Notes under the pieces: model-generated
Seen by the model: only the letters and a program-made list of their open reading frames with translations
The model's database searches: none
Told to the model about the DNA's origin: nothing
Assembly: GCA_903844735.1 (NCBI GenBank)
Contig: CAIMUX010000103.1
Location: 124,001-188,000, forward strand
Reading direction: 5' to 3'
Length of the DNA stretch: 64,000 nt
Origin: Candidatus Eiseniibacteriota bacterium
Lineage (GTDB): Bacteria; Eisenbacteria; RBG-16-71-46; CAIMUX01
Program-made: the position numbers and the translations under genes
Part shown: piece by piece, positions 1-7,520 of the stretch
Layout: the number at the start of each line of letters is the position of its first letter
Numbering within the stretch: the first letter of the stretch is position 1

Positions 1-2088
1 TATGACCTCGGGGTCGGAGTCCTACGGCGGGGCGTCAACACGGAAAAGCTCTACGAGGTGCCGGCGCAGAAATGGGCGGCGTTGTCGTGCGCGGACGGAA
101 GCGGGACGGCGGACGGAAGCGGGACGGCGCAGGGAGTCGGCGCGGTGGCGGTCCTCGACGACTGCCGGTACGGCTGGGACCACCCGGATCCGGCGACACT
201 TCGCCTTTCGCTCCTCCACACCCCGCGCGTGAACGCCGGGTGGAAGTGGGTGGCGGACGAGGGCACGCAGGACCTCGGGCGACACCTGCTGACCTACGCG
301 ATCTGCTCGATCAAAGGATCCGACCGCACCGCGGAGATTTCGTGGCAGGCGGAGCGGCTCAACCGGCCGCTGGTAGCCGTGGTCGCGCCGAAGCACCACG
401 GTCCCCTGGGTCGTCAGTTCTCGCTGCTCCAGATCGAAGGGACGGACGCCGTGATCGCGCGGGCCTGCAAGCTCGCCGAGGAGGAGAACGCCGTCATCGT
501 CCGCCTGCAGGAGCTCGACGGTGCGAACGCGACCGCCCGGCTGCGGTTCCCGTGGCCCGTCCGTTCCGTGCGGGAGGTGACCGGCGCTGAGACGCCTTTC
601 GATCCGGCGCTCGCCTCGCTTTCCCCGACGCGCAGCACGGCGCCGCCCGTCCTGGAGCCGATCGCAGGAACCGTGCACGTCGGGCTCGGCCCGTGGCAGC
701 TGCGCACGCTGCGTTTCGAGCTGGAGACGCCCGAGGCGGAGCTATCGCGCCCTTTGACCGCGGCGTGCGACCTGCCGTTTGACATCCGCGGCATCACGGC
801 GGACGGCGAGACCGACGGCGCGTTCGATGCGTCGGGCGGATCGATCCCCTCGGAGATCCTCCCCACGATCGTGGAGGCGGAGGGGATCCCGTTCCGTACC
901 GGACCTCGTGTGCCGGGAATGCCCAACGTTCTCGCCTGTCGCGGACAGCGCCTCACGCTGCCGGAAGGGCGCTGGAACCGCCTCTACCTGCTCGCCGCCG
1001 CGGTCGGCGGGGATCGTCGCGCATCTTTCCTGGTTGGCGGACATCCGCGGGATGCCTGGGTGCAGGACTGGGCCGAGCCGGTCGGTTCCTGGGACGACCG
1101 CTTGGCCGACGGGAAGCTGATTCAAGACCCCGCGCGGATCACGCCGGCGTTCGTGAAGCCCGCGCGCCTCGGTTGGGTCGGCACGCATCGGCACGACGCC
1201 ACCGGTGCGAACGTCGCCTACGCGATCACGCCGATCTGCCGTCTCCGCCTCGATCTCGCGCCGGGAGATCATGTGGTGACCTTGCCCGGCGATCCTGGCA
1301 TCCGCGTCCTTGCCGCCACCGCCGCATGGAACGAGAACGATCTCGCCACCCTCGCTACCGCGGTGATCGATGAGGCGCCGGTCACCGCGGTGCGGATCGA
1401 GACGCCGACGTCCGGTTTCCTTGAGTCCACGGAGGTCCGCTTCTCCACGCCCGACCCGGAGGCTGTCGTGCACTTCACGCTCGATGGGAGCGAGCCGGGA
1501 GCCGGATCTCCTGCCTACGTGGCGCCGTTGCGCATCGACCGTGACTGCACGCTGAAGGCGAGGGCCCTGCACCCGGGGCGCGATGACCGCTTCGTCGCCG
1601 TGCGGGAGTTTCGCCGGCTCGCGCCGCGCCCGGCGGTCTCCGTCGCCGGAGAGCTGCAGCCCGGCCTGACGTTTCGCGTCTACCACGGCGACTGGAACGC
1701 GCTGCCCGACTTCGCCGCGCTCCCGGTGGCGGCGAGCGGGGTGGTCGCCTCGGTTCGCCTGCCCGCCGAGGTTCCCGAGGACTTCTTTGGTGTCAGCCTG
1801 GAGGGGTACCTGCGCGTACCCGCCGACGGGGTGTATCTCTTTTCGCTGCGCTCGGACGACGGCAGCCGGTTATACATCGACGGCGCGCTGGCGGTCGACT
1901 CCGATGGCCTCCACGGCCTCGGCGACGAGCGCGGGGAAATACCGCTCGCGGCGGGTCTGCACCGATTGCGTGTCGACCAGTTCGAGCAGGGGGGCGACCA
2001 GGATCTGGAGCTTTGGATCGCGGGGCCGGGGTTTGGACTGCGGCCGGTGCCGGGGGAGATGTTAGAGACGGACCGGGATGGGAGGTGA
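1..2088 (+). CDS. Alpha-mannosidase (GH38-type) C-terminal part with chitobiase-C and PA14 modules, 5' truncated by window
   Basis: The reading frame is open from base 1, so the gene begins upstream; 695 residues are visible and the catalytic GH38 N-terminal domain is not. The first ~240 residues resemble the beta-sandwich C-terminal domain of GH38 mannosidases, with the stretch WKWVADEGTQDLGRHLLTYA. An NPCBM-like lectin region follows (about 250-460). Next is a chitobiase/hexosaminidase C-terminal module (about 475-545, VHFTLDGSEP). Last is a PA14-like module (about 590-685, LRSDDGSRLYIDG). Expected role: secreted or surface trimming of mannose glycans. Near residue 30 a perfect 18-bp tandem duplication (91-126) gives a repeated ADGSGT. 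A segment of this protein (residues ~344-452) is repeated in the fragment at 3568-3949. Domain calls are from visible motifs; the substrate is inferred. Confidence 0.72.
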   Translation, partial: YDLGVGVLRRGVNTEKLYEVPAQKWAALSCADGSGTADGSGTAQGVGAVAVLDDCRYGWDHPDPATLRLSLLHTPRVNAGWKWVADEGTQDLGRHLLTYAICSIKGSDRTAEISWQAERLNRPLVAVVAPKHHGPLGRQFSLLQIEGTDAVIARACKLAEEENAVIVRLQELDGANATARLRFPWPVRSVREVTGAETPFDPALASLSPTRSTAPPVLEPIAGTVHVGLGPWQLRTLRFELETPEAELSRPLTAACDLPFDIRGITADGETDGAFDASGGSIPSEILPTIVEAEGIPFRTGPRVPGMPNVLACRGQRLTLPEGRWNRLYLLAAAVGGDRRASFLVGGHPRDAWVQDWAEPVGSWDDRLADGKLIQDPARITPAFVKPARLGWVGTHRHDATGANVAYAITPICRLRLDLAPGDHVVTLPGDPGIRVLAATAAWNENDLATLATAVIDEAPVTAVRIETPTSGFLESTEVRFSTPDPEAVVHFTLDGSEPGAGSPAYVAPLRIDRDCTLKARALHPGRDDRFVAVREFRRLAPRPAVSVAGELQPGLTFRVYHGDWNALPDFAALPVAASGVVASVRLPAEVPEDFFGVSLEGYLRVPADGVYLFSLRSDDGSRLYIDGALAVDSDGLHGLGDERGEIPLAAGLHRLRVDQFEQGGDQDLELWIAGPGFGLRPVPGEMLETDRDGR

Positions 2089-2248
2089 TCCAGCAAGGAT
2101 TCACCTCGGGGAGTCCTCGCGGGTGGCCCGGAATGGGCTTTGCACTACTCCGAATGTCAGGTCCTCCCACTTCCGCTTGCGCGGTAGGGTGCCTGGATCC
2201 ATCCTGGATCATCCCATCGGCGCCAGGATGCAAACGAAGGAGGGTGCG

Positions 2249-3535
2249 ATGCGTCTTCACAAACCAAACCTGGCGGCGGCGCTTGTACTCGCGACTGCCA
2301 CCGCAGCAAGTCCGGCATCCGCCGGGACCGCCCACGTACAGGTCGTGCAGGCCAACAACGCCTTCGCCACAGACCTGTACCGGCAGCTCGCCTCTCAGGA
2401 CCGCGAGAATCTGTTCATCAGTCCGTTCAGCATCCACACCGCCATGGCGATGACCTCCCTCGGCTCCAGGGGCATCACCGCCCGCGAGATGGCCAGGGTG
2501 CTGCACTTGGAGATGAGCCGGGACAGCCTGCTCGCCGGGTACGATGCGTTGCTGACACGGATCAATTTCGATCGCGAAGCGCCGGAACCGGCGAGGGAGA
2601 ACGGCGAGGTGATCTCCAGAACCGCACCGCCCTCTCAACTCCGCATGGCCAACGCACTGTGGGCGGAAAGACAGTACCCCTTCGAGAGGAGCTACCTGGA
2701 GCGCGTTCAGCGGCACTTCCGCGCCCGCCTCGATACGCTGGACTTCAGGAGCCGGCCGGAGCCGGCCCGCGACGTGATCAATCGATGGGTGGAAACGCAG
2801 ACCTGCGACCGGATCAAGGACCTCATCCCGCCAGGTCTCATCGACGATTCGACCCGCCTGATCCTCGCCAACGCGATCTACTTCAAGGACAAGTGGGAGG
2901 AGATGTTCTGGGACCGAGCCACAAAGGACAGGCCCTTCTATCTGGTGAGTGGCGAGACGGTCCAGGTGCCACAGATGCAGCAGACCGGCTACTTCGATTA
3001 TGCCGAAACGGAAGAACTGCAACTGCTCAGCTTACCCTACAGGAACCGTGATCTGGACATGGTGGTGGTGCTGCCCAGGACGAACAATGGCCTTTCCGAT
3101 CTGGAGAGGCGATTCACGGTCGCGAACCTGACCGGGTGGCTGGCGAAGCTGACCCGGCATGAGGTCGAGGTCACGCTGCCGAAGTGGACATTCGAAAGCG
3201 GTATCATGCTCAAGGATGTTCTGCGGACCATGGGCATCACGCAGGCGTTTGCCTGGCCGGGGGCCGATTTCACCGGCATGAGTTCCACCGGTGAGCTCTT
3301 CATCGACGAGGTCCTACACAAGGCCTTCGTGGCCGTGGACGAGAGTGGTACCGAGGCCGCCGCCGCGACCGTGGAGGACATGAAGGTCGGGGCAGTAGCC
3401 ATGGAACCCCCGAAGCCGAAGCCTGCGATCTTCACGGCGGATCACCCGTTCGTCTTCCTGATCCGCCACCGGGCCAGTAGCGCGATTCTGTTCCTGGGAC
3501 GGGTGGCGAACCCAAAGCCGACGTCTTCTCGTTGA
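2249..3535 (+). CDS. Secreted serpin (serine protease inhibitor)
   Basis: 428 residues. The ATG at 2249 is chosen because GAAGGAGGG lies just upstream and the following 25 residues form a signal peptide ending ASA-GT. Serpin landmarks include NLFISPFSIHTAMAM, the shutter-type region LILANAIYFKDKW, the breach-proximal GELFIDEVLHKAFVAVDE, and the C-terminal ADHPFVFLIRHRASSAILFLGRV. The reactive-loop hinge reads G367-T-E-A-A-A-A-T374, the small-residue pattern of inhibitory serpins. Counting T368 as P14 puts P1 near G381, with V380 and A382 beside it, which suggests elastase- or subtilisin-like targets; that is inference. It lies between a mannosidase gene and a fragment of a second mannosidase, and is likely exported to the periplasm or outside. 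Confidence 0.93.
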   Translation: MRLHKPNLAAALVLATATAASPASAGTAHVQVVQANNAFATDLYRQLASQDRENLFISPFSIHTAMAMTSLGSRGITAREMARVLHLEMSRDSLLAGYDALLTRINFDREAPEPARENGEVISRTAPPSQLRMANALWAERQYPFERSYLERVQRHFRARLDTLDFRSRPEPARDVINRWVETQTCDRIKDLIPPGLIDDSTRLILANAIYFKDKWEEMFWDRATKDRPFYLVSGETVQVPQMQQTGYFDYAETEELQLLSLPYRNRDLDMVVVLPRTNNGLSDLERRFTVANLTGWLAKLTRHEVEVTLPKWTFESGIMLKDVLRTMGITQAFAWPGADFTGMSSTGELFIDEVLHKAFVAVDESGTEAAAATVEDMKVGAVAMEPPKPKPAIFTADHPFVFLIRHRASSAILFLGRVANPKPTSSR

Positions 3536-3567
3536 ACATCCCGGCGCGTGCCGCCGACCTGCGGTTC

Positions 3568-3949
3568 AGTCGGCAGGTCCACGGGGGCCTGGATGCAGGA
3601 CTGGGCCGAGCCGGTTGGTTCCCGGGACGATCGCTCGGCCGACGGGAGGCCGCTCCACGACCCGACGCGGAGCACCCCGGCGTTCGCGAAGTCCGCGCGC
3701 CTTGGCTCGGTCGGTCCACATCGGCACGACGCAGCGGGCGCGAACGTCTCCTACGCGATCACGCCAGTCTGCCGGCTCCGCCTCGACTACGCGCCGGGGG
3801 ATCGGGTGATGACGCTGCTCGGTGACCAAAGCATTCGCTTCCTCGCCGCCACCGCAGCGTTCGACGAGAACGATCTCGCCGTCGTTGTGATACAGTACGG
3901 GGCGGGAGTCGCGAGTATCGTCGTCAAAGCGGTGAAGCCGTCGCAGTAG
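3568..3949 (+). pseudogene. Remnant of a paralogous mannosidase gene
   Basis: About 110 codons in one frame match residues ~344-452 of the mannosidase at 1-2088. Examples are MQDWAEPVGSRDDR against VQDWAEPVGSWDDR and NVSYAITPVCRLRLDYAPGD against NVAYAITPICRLRLDLAPGD. DNA similarity to 1027-1350 is also evident. No GH38 catalytic part, chitobiase-C or PA14 module follows: after FDENDLA the frame runs into an unrelated ~25-residue tail and stops at 3949. There is no convincing start. I read it as the internal piece left from a tandem duplicate, separated from the surviving copy by the serpin gene. Confidence 0.75.
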
Positions 3950-3964
3950 ACAGGAGCGACAGCC

Positions 3965-5488
3965 ATGGTGAGCTTCTATGTATATTTGGCCGTAATCGTC
4001 GGCGGCGCCTCGGTGCTGGCGATGGAGATTCTCGGCACCCGCATCATCGCACCGTTCTACGGCTCCGGTCTTTACCTGTGGTCCGCCCTGATCAGCGTGA
4101 CGCTCGCCGCCCTCAGTGCGGGCTACGCTGTCGGCGGACGCTGGGCCGACCGCGGGGTGAGACTGGGCCGTTTCTGCGCCATCATCGGTCTGGCCGGGCT
4201 GTGGATCGCCGCCATCCCTTGGCTGCGATTGCCCCTGCTGGCGATAGCCGGAAAGGCGGGATTGCGTGCAGGGGTGTTGATCACGGCGACGGTTCTGTTC
4301 TTCCCGCCGCTGGCCCTCCTAGGGATGGTCAGCCCGTATGCGATTCGCCTGCAAGCCGCGAGTCTGGAGGTGGTGGGACGAACCGCGGGCAATCTCTATG
4401 CGGTATCGACGGTCGCGAGCGTCGCCGCTGCCATCGCGACGGGCTTCTTTCTGATCCCCCACGTCGGCGTGTATCGCCTGGTCTTTCTGATCGGCCTGGT
4501 GCTCGTCGCTACGTCGCTTCTTGGGTTCGCGATGGAGCACAGGCGGAAAGCGGGGCTGGCGGCGATCTTGATACTCGCGCCCGCGGCCGTCCTGTCGTTT
4601 CGGGCAGCGCCCGCACACACGGCCGATCCGGCTCGCGGCGTGATGGCGGTGGAGCAGAGCGCCTACGGCGAGATTCGGGTCGTTGACTACGAGGACACCC
4701 GCAACCTCATCATCGACGGGGGTACGCACAGCATCGTGGATCCCGGCACGTGGGAGTCGCTTGCTCCCTACGTGCGTGTGGTTGACATCGCCAAGGAGTT
4801 CTTCACCCAGTCCGGCGATATGTTATTGGTGGGGCTCGGGGGCGGGTCGGTCGCGAAGAGTTTCAGTCGTGACGGCTGGCGGGTGGACGCCGTGGAGATC
4901 GACCCGGCGGTGACGCGGATGGCGCGCCGGTACTTCGGGCTCGATTCCACCGAGGCGGAAGTCTACGAGATGGACGCCCGTCGATTCCTGCTCACCCACA
5001 ACTGGACCTACGACGTCATTGTCATGGACGCTTTCGGGAGCACCTCCATTCCATTTCACCTGGTGACGACCGAGGCGTTCAGGCTGATCCGATCACGCCT
5101 GTTGCCAGGCGGAGTTCTCGCCATGAATCTCGAGGCCGTGGGCTGGCACGACGTGGTCATCCGCTCGATCGCGGCTACGGCGAGGCGGCAGTTCGACCAT
5201 GTTGTCGTGCTGCCGATCGTGGAGCCGCCCGATCAGTTGGGGAATGTCGTGCTGCTGGCGTCAAACCGGGAGATCGATCTCGACTTGAATCTGCCGATCC
5301 CGCGCGATCGCTTCAGTCCCGCGTATGACCGTGCGCACGCCTGGGACAACCGCTTCGAGGTCCCGGTCGCGGGAAACCAGGTGCTCACCGACGAGCTCAA
5401 TCCGGTTGACGTCTGGAGCGATCGCGTCAATTTCGCCGCTCGAAAGGAACTACACGCCGTCTGGGACAAGCGTGGAGTCGCCTGGTAG
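3965..5488 (+). CDS. Membrane-fused spermidine-synthase-like protein
   Basis: 507 residues; ATG with GGAG 10 bases upstream. The first ~215 residues hold about seven hydrophobic segments typical of the fused MFS/spermidine synthase family, opening with the family signature GGASVLAMEILGTRIIAPFYG. The C-terminal half is a Rossmann SAM-type domain: LLVGLGGGSVAKSF (glycine loop), VDAVEIDPAV (acidic ribose-binding end of strand 2) and DVIVMDAFG (gate/catalytic region). In true SpeE the last motif carries two acidic residues around the active site; here it is DAFGST, so aminopropyl transfer is not assured. Location: inner membrane. The real substrate of this family is largely unknown. Confidence 0.85.
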   Translation: MVSFYVYLAVIVGGASVLAMEILGTRIIAPFYGSGLYLWSALISVTLAALSAGYAVGGRWADRGVRLGRFCAIIGLAGLWIAAIPWLRLPLLAIAGKAGLRAGVLITATVLFFPPLALLGMVSPYAIRLQAASLEVVGRTAGNLYAVSTVASVAAAIATGFFLIPHVGVYRLVFLIGLVLVATSLLGFAMEHRRKAGLAAILILAPAAVLSFRAAPAHTADPARGVMAVEQSAYGEIRVVDYEDTRNLIIDGGTHSIVDPGTWESLAPYVRVVDIAKEFFTQSGDMLLVGLGGGSVAKSFSRDGWRVDAVEIDPAVTRMARRYFGLDSTEAEVYEMDARRFLLTHNWTYDVIVMDAFGSTSIPFHLVTTEAFRLIRSRLLPGGVLAMNLEAVGWHDVVIRSIAATARRQFDHVVVLPIVEPPDQLGNVVLLASNREIDLDLNLPIPRDRFSPAYDRAHAWDNRFEVPVAGNQVLTDELNPVDVWSDRVNFAARKELHAVWDKRGVAW

Positions 5489-5544: not shown

Positions 5545-5949
5545 TCAGTCGTCCTGCATCGGCTTGATCACGCCGCTCACAAAGACCCGGACTGGGTGTC
5601 CCTCCAATGTCTTGGGGACCCTCCGCCCGATCTCCTTCGTTTCCTGAACGACCATGACCAGGATACAGGGCGTTCCGTCGTCCATCGCGCCCACGGCGAC
5701 GCCCACCACATCGGGGATCGCCATCAGTTCGCTGACGTGGGCATCCATGACGGCAGTGATGTCGCGGTGTGGCACGCCGTCCCCGCTTTCCTTCCGATGC
5801 CGACAGCCGCCGGCTCCGCCGAGTGCCAGCGCCAGCGTCAACGCCAGTGCCGGCAGGACGGTCAGGCACAATTGAAGCAAGCCCGCCCCCGGCTCGTGGC
5901 CGAGGACGGGCCTGGGAATCCGCGCTCCGACCCTGCCGTCAGAGCACAT
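5545..5949 (-). CDS. Small lipoprotein related to the N-terminal module of the adjacent protease
   Basis: 134 residues from the ATG at 5949, six bases after the stop of the upstream protease gene, so probably co-transcribed. A downstream TTG before the hydrophobic run LLQLCLTVLPALAL is an alternative start. The run ends in GAGGC, a possible lipobox. The remaining ~85 residues (IPDVVGVAVGAMDDGTPCIL, then PKTLEGHPVRVFVSGVI) repeat the layout of residues ~58-120 of the protease (QPNVIGTATTLDDNGQPAVM, then PTVLDGVPVVVVLTDPI). It could be a free copy of the propeptide-like module, perhaps an inhibitor or chaperone of the protease; that role is inference. Confidence 0.72.
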   Translation of the reverse strand: MCSDGRVGARIPRPVLGHEPGAGLLQLCLTVLPALALTLALALGGAGGCRHRKESGDGVPHRDITAVMDAHVSELMAIPDVVGVAVGAMDDGTPCILVMVVQETKEIGRRVPKTLEGHPVRVFVSGVIKPMQDD

Positions 5950-5955
5950 CAGATG

Positions 5956-7068
5956 CTAGATCCCGACCATCGTGGCGCCGAAGAACGACAACACCGAGTT
6001 GATCGGATTCGCGATCGCGGTCGTGGTGCTGCCCGCGAAGAGCAGGCCCACCGCTTTCGGATTGGTGGTGATGTCCTGGACCAGCAGGGAGCCCGAATCG
6101 CCGCCCGCCAGGAACTTGCTGCGCGAGTTGGCGATGACGATCTGGCCAGTGAAGGTCTTGGTGAAGGCCACGCCGCCCGCGCACTCGTTCTCGTACTGGA
6201 TGCTGATGGTTGCATTCAAGCCGGTGACGGAGCTGCGCGTCAGACCGGTGGTGCGACCGCTCTTCTTGACCAGTTGTCCGACCGACGCGGCCACCGTGGT
6301 CGCGGAAATCGTGCCGACCTCGAGGATGGCTCCGGTGAGGTCTACCATGCCGGTGACGATGGTTGCGCTCGAACAGTCAACGTTGTTGTTCGGCAGCGAG
6401 CTGGTCTTCACCAGGGTGGCCACGTTCTGGGCACTGGCGGCGCTGCAGTTCACGTCAATGAGTCCGGGCTGAATGATGTAGTCGCCGGTGGCCGCCACAA
6501 CGGCGTTGCCGCCGGCGACGATGTCGGCCTCGAAAACGTGATAGTTGCTGAGAATGCGCTTTTGGGTGCCGACCTGGATCAGGGAGCCGAGTGTACCGCC
6601 GCAGCAATAGCCGTTGGCCAGGTCGCTGCGCCAGCCGCCCGAGGTGCCGAGCTTGATCGGCGGGATCTGCTTGGCGATGTGGCTGACAGTCGTGGTGGTC
6701 TTGAAGGCGACGATCGGGTCGGTGAGAACGACGACGACCGGAACGCCGTCGAGGACCGTGGGAGCCGCTGCCTTGGCCGCATCCGAGGTCACCAGGAGCA
6801 TGACGGCCGGCTGGCCGTTGTCATCGAGCGTCGTGGCGGTGCCGATGACATTCGGCTGCGCCATGAGGCGCGCGGTGTGAAGATTCTGAATGGCCATCAC
6901 CGACTGCAGTTGAGGATTGGCCAGACTCCAGGTTCCGACATCGGACCTGTCCGGTGCCATGGGGGTGTCCGCTGTTTCGGAGCATCCCCAGAGACCCATG
7001 ACGAGGACGAGAGCGACGCCGACCAGCATCGGCATCAGACTGCGCGGACGGGTGAATGAAAGCTTCAC
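5956..7068 (-). CDS. Trypsin-like serine protease lipoprotein (NAL1-like)
   Basis: 370 residues. The GTG at 7068 is chosen over upstream starts because AAGGAGG sits just before it and the next residues form a lipoprotein signal ending LVMGLWGC29. An N-terminal module (about 55-125) is followed by a chymotrypsin-fold domain with a visible triad: H177 in LSNYHVF, D231 in NNVDCSSATI, and S325 in LAGGDSGSLLV. GRTTGLT near 271-277 is also typical of NAL1-like bacterial proteases. It is likely anchored in the outer or inner membrane facing the periplasm. It heads a two-gene unit with the small lipoprotein downstream. The physiological target is unknown. Confidence 0.88.
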   Translation of the reverse strand: MKLSFTRPRSLMPMLVGVALVLVMGLWGCSETADTPMAPDRSDVGTWSLANPQLQSVMAIQNLHTARLMAQPNVIGTATTLDDNGQPAVMLLVTSDAAKAAAPTVLDGVPVVVVLTDPIVAFKTTTTVSHIAKQIPPIKLGTSGGWRSDLANGYCCGGTLGSLIQVGTQKRILSNYHVFEADIVAGGNAVVAATGDYIIQPGLIDVNCSAASAQNVATLVKTSSLPNNNVDCSSATIVTGMVDLTGAILEVGTISATTVAASVGQLVKKSGRTTGLTRSSVTGLNATISIQYENECAGGVAFTKTFTGQIVIANSRSKFLAGGDSGSLLVQDITTNPKAVGLLFAGSTTTAIANPINSVLSFFGATMVGI

Positions 7069-7520
7069 GCGGACCCTCCTTGGGGTTGTGAGGCCGGGGT
7101 GGGTAGCCTGCGCCCAACGTACAGACAACCCGGGTGGATTGTTGCACTGTGGGTAGGGTCTTGTCAAGCAGGAGGTTGTGGCCTGAGATTCGGATGGACG
7201 GTCTGCCCTCCCGAAGTCCGAGGTCTGAAGCCTGAAGCCCGAAGCCTCGGAATCTCAGGATGATGTGGAAGGACCTTGAAGCCGCCCCGAACCTCGGCCA
7301 GTCTTGTTCACGGTCGCGCGGAGTCGTTCGATGGGCTTCGTTTTTGTCGGCAGCATGGCGGTTGCCCTCGGGCATCAAGGAGGCTTGGGTCATGGACCAA
7401 CGGCGTCGGGTTCGACTTTCTTCAGACTGGGTCAAAGAGCATGTACGGGCGCACGGGTCGAGGCTCTACATCGTCGAAAGGGTGAGCGTCGTCGGGTGAT
7501 GAAACGCCTATCGAGGCCCG
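7069..7520. other. Intergenic region with a copy of the dispersed repeat
   Basis: No convincing gene. The bases just before the protease GTG hold its ribosome binding site. Positions 7185-7262 contain the CCGAAG/CTGAAGCCCGAAGCC repeat described separately. A short open frame at 7260-7499 ends in two adjacent TGA codons (7497-7502) and has no recognisable protein features. Confidence 0.5.
7185..7262. repeat. Dispersed intergenic repeat, copy 1
   Basis: Imperfect 6-7 base units (CCGAAGTCCGAGG, CTGAAGCCTGAAGCCCGAAG) are followed by GGAATCTCAGG. The same words occur in the copies at 14250-14345 (other orientation), 29503-29550, 32866-32906 (other orientation) and 49080-49182. All copies lie between genes. 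Confidence 0.7.

Follow-up and report, generated by a model that had tools for sequence, protein, structure and literature searches.

The window, a 64,000-nt stretch of DNA, encodes on its minus strand a serine protease (P0001) and directly behind it a small protein (P0002); a membrane protein gene on the plus strand is the third conserved gene of the locus.

5956..7068, minus strand: P0001, NAL1-like serine protease and predicted lipoprotein, 370 aa, GTG start at 7068 (Pfam Nal1_C, translation)
6982..7068, minus strand: signal peptide of P0001 with a lipobox-like L-W-G-C (Cys29) (translation)
6703..6918, minus strand: attached N-terminal module of P0001, residues about 51-122 (NPQLQ...DPIVAF), ~72 residues (profile match to free modules)
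5959..6663, minus strand: catalytic domain of P0001, S1/streptogrisin-like fold with His177, Asp231, and Ser325 (alignment invariance, VIA)
5545..5949, minus strand: P0002, stand-alone module protein, 134 aa, ATG start at 5949 (translation, BLASTP, profile comparison)
5557..5775, minus strand: module of P0002 (residues 59-131); strand 2 carries Cys95, and a K-P-M tail lies near the C-terminus (AlphaFold2 model, residue columns, comparison of tails)
7138..7167, minus strand: promoter-like match upstream of the protease (consensus scan only; one found versus 0.3 expected)
3965..5488, plus strand: fused MFS/spermidine-synthase-like membrane protein, third conserved gene, convergent with the pair (NCBIfam MFS_SpdSyn E 3.7e-69; neighbour tally)

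P0001 is composed of a signal peptide with a lipobox-like Cys, the module, a linker, and the catalytic domain, in this order; the boundary of its gene at 7068 depends on the GTG there being the true start. The protein matches Pfam Nal1_C (E 1.2e-8, 34.9 bits, above the curated cut-off of 26.1), as do all 45 of the 45 aligned protease relatives (E up to 0.1). A His, an Asp, and a Ser (H149, D203, and S297 in A1 reference numbering) are invariant in the 45 rows of the A1 alignment, which holds 45 of 51 sequences and leaves out the truncated or frameshifted L010, L011, L020, L051, L070, and the L068 fragment. By position and S1 motifs, we take H177, D231, and S325 of P0001 to be the catalytic triad. 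Among 72,556 plasmid records, only five distant, partial matches to the protease were found.

P0002 comprises a hydrophobic leader and a single module that ends three residues before the stop; its lipobox (A-G-G-C) is weak and sits after the hydrophobic stretch. The stop of P0001 and the ATG of P0002 are two codons apart in the same frame, a consensus scan found no promoter-like match between the two genes, and they are presumably co-transcribed. P0002 has no Pfam match, 42 free modules, as we call the stand-alone copies, matched no convincing family and no pro-domain family, and a PDB sequence search with the free-module profile returned nothing below E 0.8.

Homology, distribution, and descent of the modules

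An earlier note on this DNA had proposed that the small protein repeats the pre-catalytic module of the protease and had named a profile comparison as the way to refute it. That comparison found the modules to be related (hhalign probability 99.6%, E 1.9e-23, 70 columns), and their homology is also borne out by BLASTP, in which P0001 against P0002 alone gave E 1e-7 with 16/56 identical residues. Within the window's own genome, the protease module is the sole other match of P0002 at E 0.001 or better. With profiles that contain the rows tested, attached modules recovered all 43 of 43 free modules at 28.9-63.8 bits (window 60.5), where shuffled sequences reached at most 8.7 bits (1,932 scored of 2,000 shuffles made from 10 modules), and free modules recovered 48/48 attached modules at 11.8-72.6 bits (window 41.4), where shuffles reached at most 13.2 bits (1,938 scored) and the weakest attached row, L019 (11.8 bits), falls inside the shuffled range. 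Shuffles and profile comparison together rule out a chance resemblance of the modules.

Relatives were gathered with the protease as query from 47 genomes of the window's phylum and from a species-wide genome collection, which yielded 34 loci. The attached module is part of this query, but every counted locus nonetheless holds a protease. L021 and L023-L030 were dropped as second views of loci already counted, and L011 was dropped because the two contig ends of G024 suggest that it and L020 are two pieces of one gene. The co-occurrence in other genomes that the earlier note had asked about proved to be wide: 42 of the 50 proteases have an adjacent free module, directly downstream on the same strand in 40 (the module begins 94-387 nt past the protease stop) and upstream on the opposite strand, divergently, in two. 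No free module was found in the stretch examined for the other eight (L014, L015, L018, L019, L022, L058, L063, and the L068 fragment, which is cut by a contig edge). The observation is thus correct, the pairing is real and widespread, and the two proteins most likely form a co-inherited enzyme-partner pair.

Thirty-one of the 32 genomes behind the 34 contig loci have a free module, the Ignavibacteriae genome G071 being the only one in which none was found, and G050 and G063 each have two proteases and two free modules. Among the 47 genomes of the window's phylum, ten have both genes, four only the protease, one only the free module, and 32 neither (Fisher p 1.9e-6, which is only a guide, the genomes being related). 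Adjacent pairs are present in Krumholzibacteriota, Zixiibacteriota, Fibrobacterota, Verrucomicrobiota, Thermodesulfobacteriota, and candidate division KSB1, among others, and single taxon assignments may be wrong because most of these genomes are metagenome bins. The module occurs in at least 8 of 387 genomes drawn evenly from the Verrucomicrobial phylum, where up to 15 first-look candidates per genome were scored, and in 44 of 82 genomes of the phylum of G065, so the unit is patchy. One free module (L031) lies beside genes that by eye resemble a metal transporter in G041, a genome in which no protease was found, whereas G040 and G042 of the same genus have the protease but no free module.

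A tree of 91 modules separates the 43 free from the 48 attached copies along a single branch (support 100/98); the split recurs in all 200 bootstrap trees, and shuffled labels need about 30 changes. A recent local duplication is not supported, since attached and free copies part on this one branch, and the tree suggests one old duplication followed by joint inheritance or joint transfer. When 51 further, more divergent modules were added, 65 main-type attached modules and three C-terminal copies still grouped (68 rows, 100/99), but the split became less clean on the free side, with the free copies needing six changes (shuffled mean 46.6). Five attached modules of divergent proteases are mixed among free and orphan copies in this wider tree, which has several long branches and few columns for so many rows. 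For the main type, the simplest reading is a single duplication, with the root as a proposal. Across 39 pairs, mirror-tree distances of the free module and the catalytic domain correlate (r 0.49, 0 of 2000 permutations as high), a correlation that cannot tell function from shared descent.

The three C-terminal copies belong to proteases of the Verrucomicrobial phylum (L102, L104, and L106) in which the catalytic domain comes first and no N-terminal module was found. These permuted proteases end exactly at ...VAF or ...VAY (the start of the L104 frame is not resolved), their modules group with the attached copies in the tree, and no separate free copy was found in their genomes among the candidates scored. 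Because three natural proteases carry the module C-terminally, it need not precede its enzyme, and since it can evidently sit at either terminus, it plausibly docks on the folded catalytic domain, so that a free copy could dock as well.

Short modules without an evident signal peptide also exist on their own in the phylum of G065. Six such orphans (L167, L170, L171, L172, L174, and L180) have no recognised protease in flanks of up to 1.5 kb per side (the L180 flank is cut on one side); in G505, the genome of L174, a separate contig gives a weak match to Nal1_C. In this phylum Nal1_C is found in 18 of 82 genomes (16 over the cut-off) versus 44 for the module, a difference to be read knowing that Pfam Nal1_C misses proteases that the A1 profile finds (e.g., L158, L159, L162, and L163). 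As the orphans lack a recognised protease in these flanks and the module outnumbers Nal1_C, the module is broader than this pair and not exclusive to it. Named by eye, an acyltransferase-like gene lies beside L167, L170, L171, and L172, and an aminopeptidase-P-like gene also lies beside L170 and L171. More distant proteases (L168, L169, L173, L175, and L177) have an adjacent free module too, which in L169 is upstream of the protease.

Predicted folds and known systems

Modeling of P0002 residues 49-134 with AlphaFold2 gave an alpha-beta-beta-alpha-beta order (mean pLDDT 81.5, pTM 0.66). A Foldseek search with this model gave nothing that reached E 0.001; its list is headed by ribosomal proteins, places the alpha-lytic pro region 11th (E 0.094, probability 0.89; entries 0.80-0.89), and does not have NAL1 among the best 50 matches. 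Upon realignment, the best 50 of 999 chains include ten NAL1 entries (Z 7.4 to 4.6, 22-25% identity), the alpha-lytic pro region (Z 5.7, 5.3, and 5.2), a designed protein (Z 6.4), and ribosomal proteins (Z about 5), scores that are suggestive because they lie below the level the tool calls distinctive. The nearest solved folds after realignment are, at these modest scores, pre-catalytic domains of S1-type proteases. Of the label "propeptide" given earlier to the small protein, what stands is that it is a homologue of the pre-catalytic module; the label itself is a guess, since the N-domain of NAL1 shares a chain with its catalytic domain.

A read-through model of both genes as one chain (pTM 0.69) is mostly confident for the modules and the catalytic domain (most 10-residue blocks above 90) and leaves the free module without a confident placement. 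The attached module forms helix-strand-strand-helix-strand in this model, with a block pLDDT of 96-98. VIA aligned the protease model to 11 rice NAL1 entries at Z 19.0-26.1 over 269-288 residues, with the best superposition on 8pmi_A (Z 26.1, 288 residues, rmsd 3.3, model 23-348). For the catalytic part, S. griseus protease B scored Z 20.0, and entries of alpha-lytic protease Z 19.2-19.7. The predicted model of P0001 therefore has by VIA an N-domain and a trypsin-like domain in the NAL1 arrangement, and the module is tied most firmly to the NAL1 N-domain because the whole-protease match covers the attached module.

NAL1/SPIKE of rice (PDB 7y77, 8pmi, and others) superposes on the P0001 model with its whole chain, N-module and catalytic domain, and its N-domain is the best match of the free module after realignment (Z up to 7.4). 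We know of no export anchor and no free N-domain partner of NAL1, and the role of the plant N-domain is, to our knowledge, unexplained. A passage of one source describes NAL1 as plant-specific (PMC12915138). Alpha-lytic protease and its pro region (PDB 2pro/3pro/4pro) resemble the pair in the fold of the catalytic domain (Z about 19) and, at scores that are suggestive, in that of the pre-catalytic module (Z 5.2-5.7), and in one passage on this enzyme the pro-mature junction is said to span the active site (PMC2829044). Unlike in that system, the locus here has a single-module free copy in a separate gene, without a Pfam pro-domain match and with modest fold scores.

SpeB-Spi and staphopain-staphostatin are cysteine protease systems, a different class from P0001, and Spi resembles the SpeB propeptide. 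In both, the gene of the protease is linked to that of a small inhibitor specific for it, according to a published account (PMC3462683). SUB1-ProM and other I9 mimics are described in PMC6993865 as stand-alone propeptide-like proteins, adjacent to subtilisin-like genes, that act as potent inhibitors; unlike P0002, these are eukaryotic and have the subtilisin propeptide fold. What Spi and the SUB1-ProM kind have in common with the present pair is a small protein that is encoded beside the protease (here in 42/50) and is related to the pre-catalytic module of the enzyme. The stand-alone mimic layout is known for subtilisins from the same source (PMC6993865), and a similar layout is here found in a NAL1-related trypsin-fold family of several poorly studied phyla. 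In the open-access literature searched for NAL1 structure, free propeptides, and the gene set, no description of this protease/free-module pair was found.

Possible roles of the free module

Attached and free copies differ in conserved residues. The attached module keeps a Gln (47/48) and two Thr (45/48 and 46/48), and free copies have Met/Leu/Ile (41/43), mixed letters, and Val (35/43) at these three positions; since these near-invariant residues are mostly lost, the free module is probably not docked in exactly the same way. Strand 2 bears a Cys in 36/43 free copies, where attached copies have Ala or Val (43/48). Free modules end in a conserved tail, with Pro/Ala in 42/42 followed by Met/Leu in 35/42, and the chain stops no more than eight residues on in 41/42 (L047, cut by a contig end, is left out); attached modules end similarly, with Ala/Pro in 48/48 and then Met/Phe/Tyr/Leu in 47/48. 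Chymotrypsin-like S1 enzymes commonly accept Pro/Ala and then a hydrophobic residue at P2-P1, and because the tail pattern suits this preference, the tail may resemble a cleavage product. The shortness of the tails is in itself weak evidence, as a one-domain protein must end near the end of its domain.

The proposal that both proteins are anchored in the same membrane holds in part: by a crude rule, a lipobox-like Cys is present in 38/47 attached copies (L051, a truncated frame, is left out) and 27/43 free copies, and a similarly crude rule finds a hydrophobic leader in 36/43 free copies. Where both are anchored, protease and free module presumably share a membrane. In three free copies (L041, L050, and L059) the open frame begins immediately ahead of the module and shows no signal peptide, and their proteases have one.

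Of 44 testable loci, 29 have the synthase-like membrane protein gene as a neighbour of the protease or pair. Among all 50 loci, 27 have it in convergent orientation, with 3-361 nt separating its end from that of the protease or pair; L063 and the L068 fragment, without a free module between, are among these. In 17 of the 50 the flank showed no convergent copy, and in another six the flank is too short; in two of the 17 (L010 and L020) it is on the same strand behind the free module. No synthase-like gene was found in L058, in several loci of the window's own phylum, or in the Verrucomicrobial pairs L061, L062, L064, L066, and L067, whose flanks are long enough. In the Planctomycete G066 (L094), the free module adjoins the synthase-like gene and the protease is on another contig. 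Over 24 loci with the third gene, free-module distances track the synthase-like gene with r 0.67 and the catalytic domain with r 0.32 (p 0.051), and because they follow the synthase-like gene more, a role of the free module between the protease and the membrane protein is possible.

As a predicted function, inhibition is the likeliest among several readings: we tentatively favour, at somewhat less than an even chance, the free module as a dedicated partner that docks on the catalytic domain, most probably as an inhibitor whose tail occupies the active site. On this reading, an ancestral module of alpha-lytic-pro/NAL1-N type would have been duplicated long ago, one copy staying before the catalytic domain and the other becoming a separate protein, in most cases exported, that the next gene encodes. 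In the envelope, the free module would dock on the catalytic domain of its protease, its short C-terminal tail (usually Pro/Ala then Met/Leu) lying in the substrate cleft like a cleaved product, and the enzyme would be held off until the free module is displaced or degraded. Homology, linkage, the split in the core set, the predicted fold, the conservation of the tail, and the invariant triad are consistent with this, and the known adjacent and propeptide-like inhibitors (PMC3462683 and PMC6993865), the alpha-lytic junction over the active site (PMC2829044), and the permuted proteases also speak for it. Against it weigh the three near-invariant residues mostly lost in free copies, the low fold scores, the orphan modules, the distances that track the synthase-like gene, and the eight of 50 proteases with no adjacent free module.

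The replacement of the conserved polar residues of the attached copy by hydrophobic ones (Gln to Met/Leu/Ile in 41/43) and the strand 2 Cys of 36/43 free copies would also suit an allosteric or assembly subunit that pairs with the attached module or the synthase-like protein and sets the oligomeric state or position of the protease, leaving the active site unfilled. The distances that track the synthase-like gene over 24 loci and the G066 free module beside that gene, with the protease on another contig, point the same way, but the five Verrucomicrobial pairs lack a synthase-like gene in adequate flanks and the conserved tail would be left unexplained, so we regard such a subunit as a rather doubtful though substantial alternative. 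A further reading has the free module helping the catalytic domain to fold, as a foldase acting in trans in the manner of the alpha-lytic pro region. It draws on the modest fold resemblance to that region and on a catalytic domain of the alpha-lytic protease fold; it is quite unlikely, as one module is already part of the protease chain and the permuted proteases bear theirs behind the catalytic domain, with no separate free copy among the candidates scored.

The orphan, signal-less modules without a protease found nearby, and the G041 free module by metal-transporter-like genes (named by eye) in a genome where no protease was found, would instead fit a general ligand- or peptide-binding domain whose free copy has a task of its own, such as substrate presentation or ligand sensing, and whose link to the protease is merely historical. 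Tight linkage across phyla and strong co-occurrence speak against this reading, which we consider slightly less likely still than the foldase. Returning to inhibition, an extended form of it would make the three genes one envelope unit, in which the lipid-anchored free pro-type domain acts as a product-like inhibitor of the NAL1-like protease and the state of the spermidine-synthase-like membrane protein frees the enzyme; we deem this unit unlikely, and if it did exist, the plant NAL1 N-domain would descend from such a regulatory pro-type module. The inhibitor reading itself, if true, would offer a testable handle on the function of the NAL1 N-domain, and the natural permuted proteases raise the question of whether a pro-type domain has to come before its enzyme.

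About 2 kb from the pair, a serpin is encoded at 2078-3535 on the plus strand (Pfam PF00079, E 1.5e-114), so that the gene of a serine protease inhibitor lies close to that of a serine protease. Across 152 loci no serpin match was found, in flanks that are in many cases no longer than 1.5 kb and that reach up to 4 kb in the 34 contig loci; the serpin was therefore set aside, though with such short flanks it may still be a part of the system. On the far side of the serpin, part of the large gene at 58-2088 recurs in the translation of 3548-3946 (plus strand), with a score of 387 over 105 aligned residues; this stretch is probably the remnant of an old duplication.
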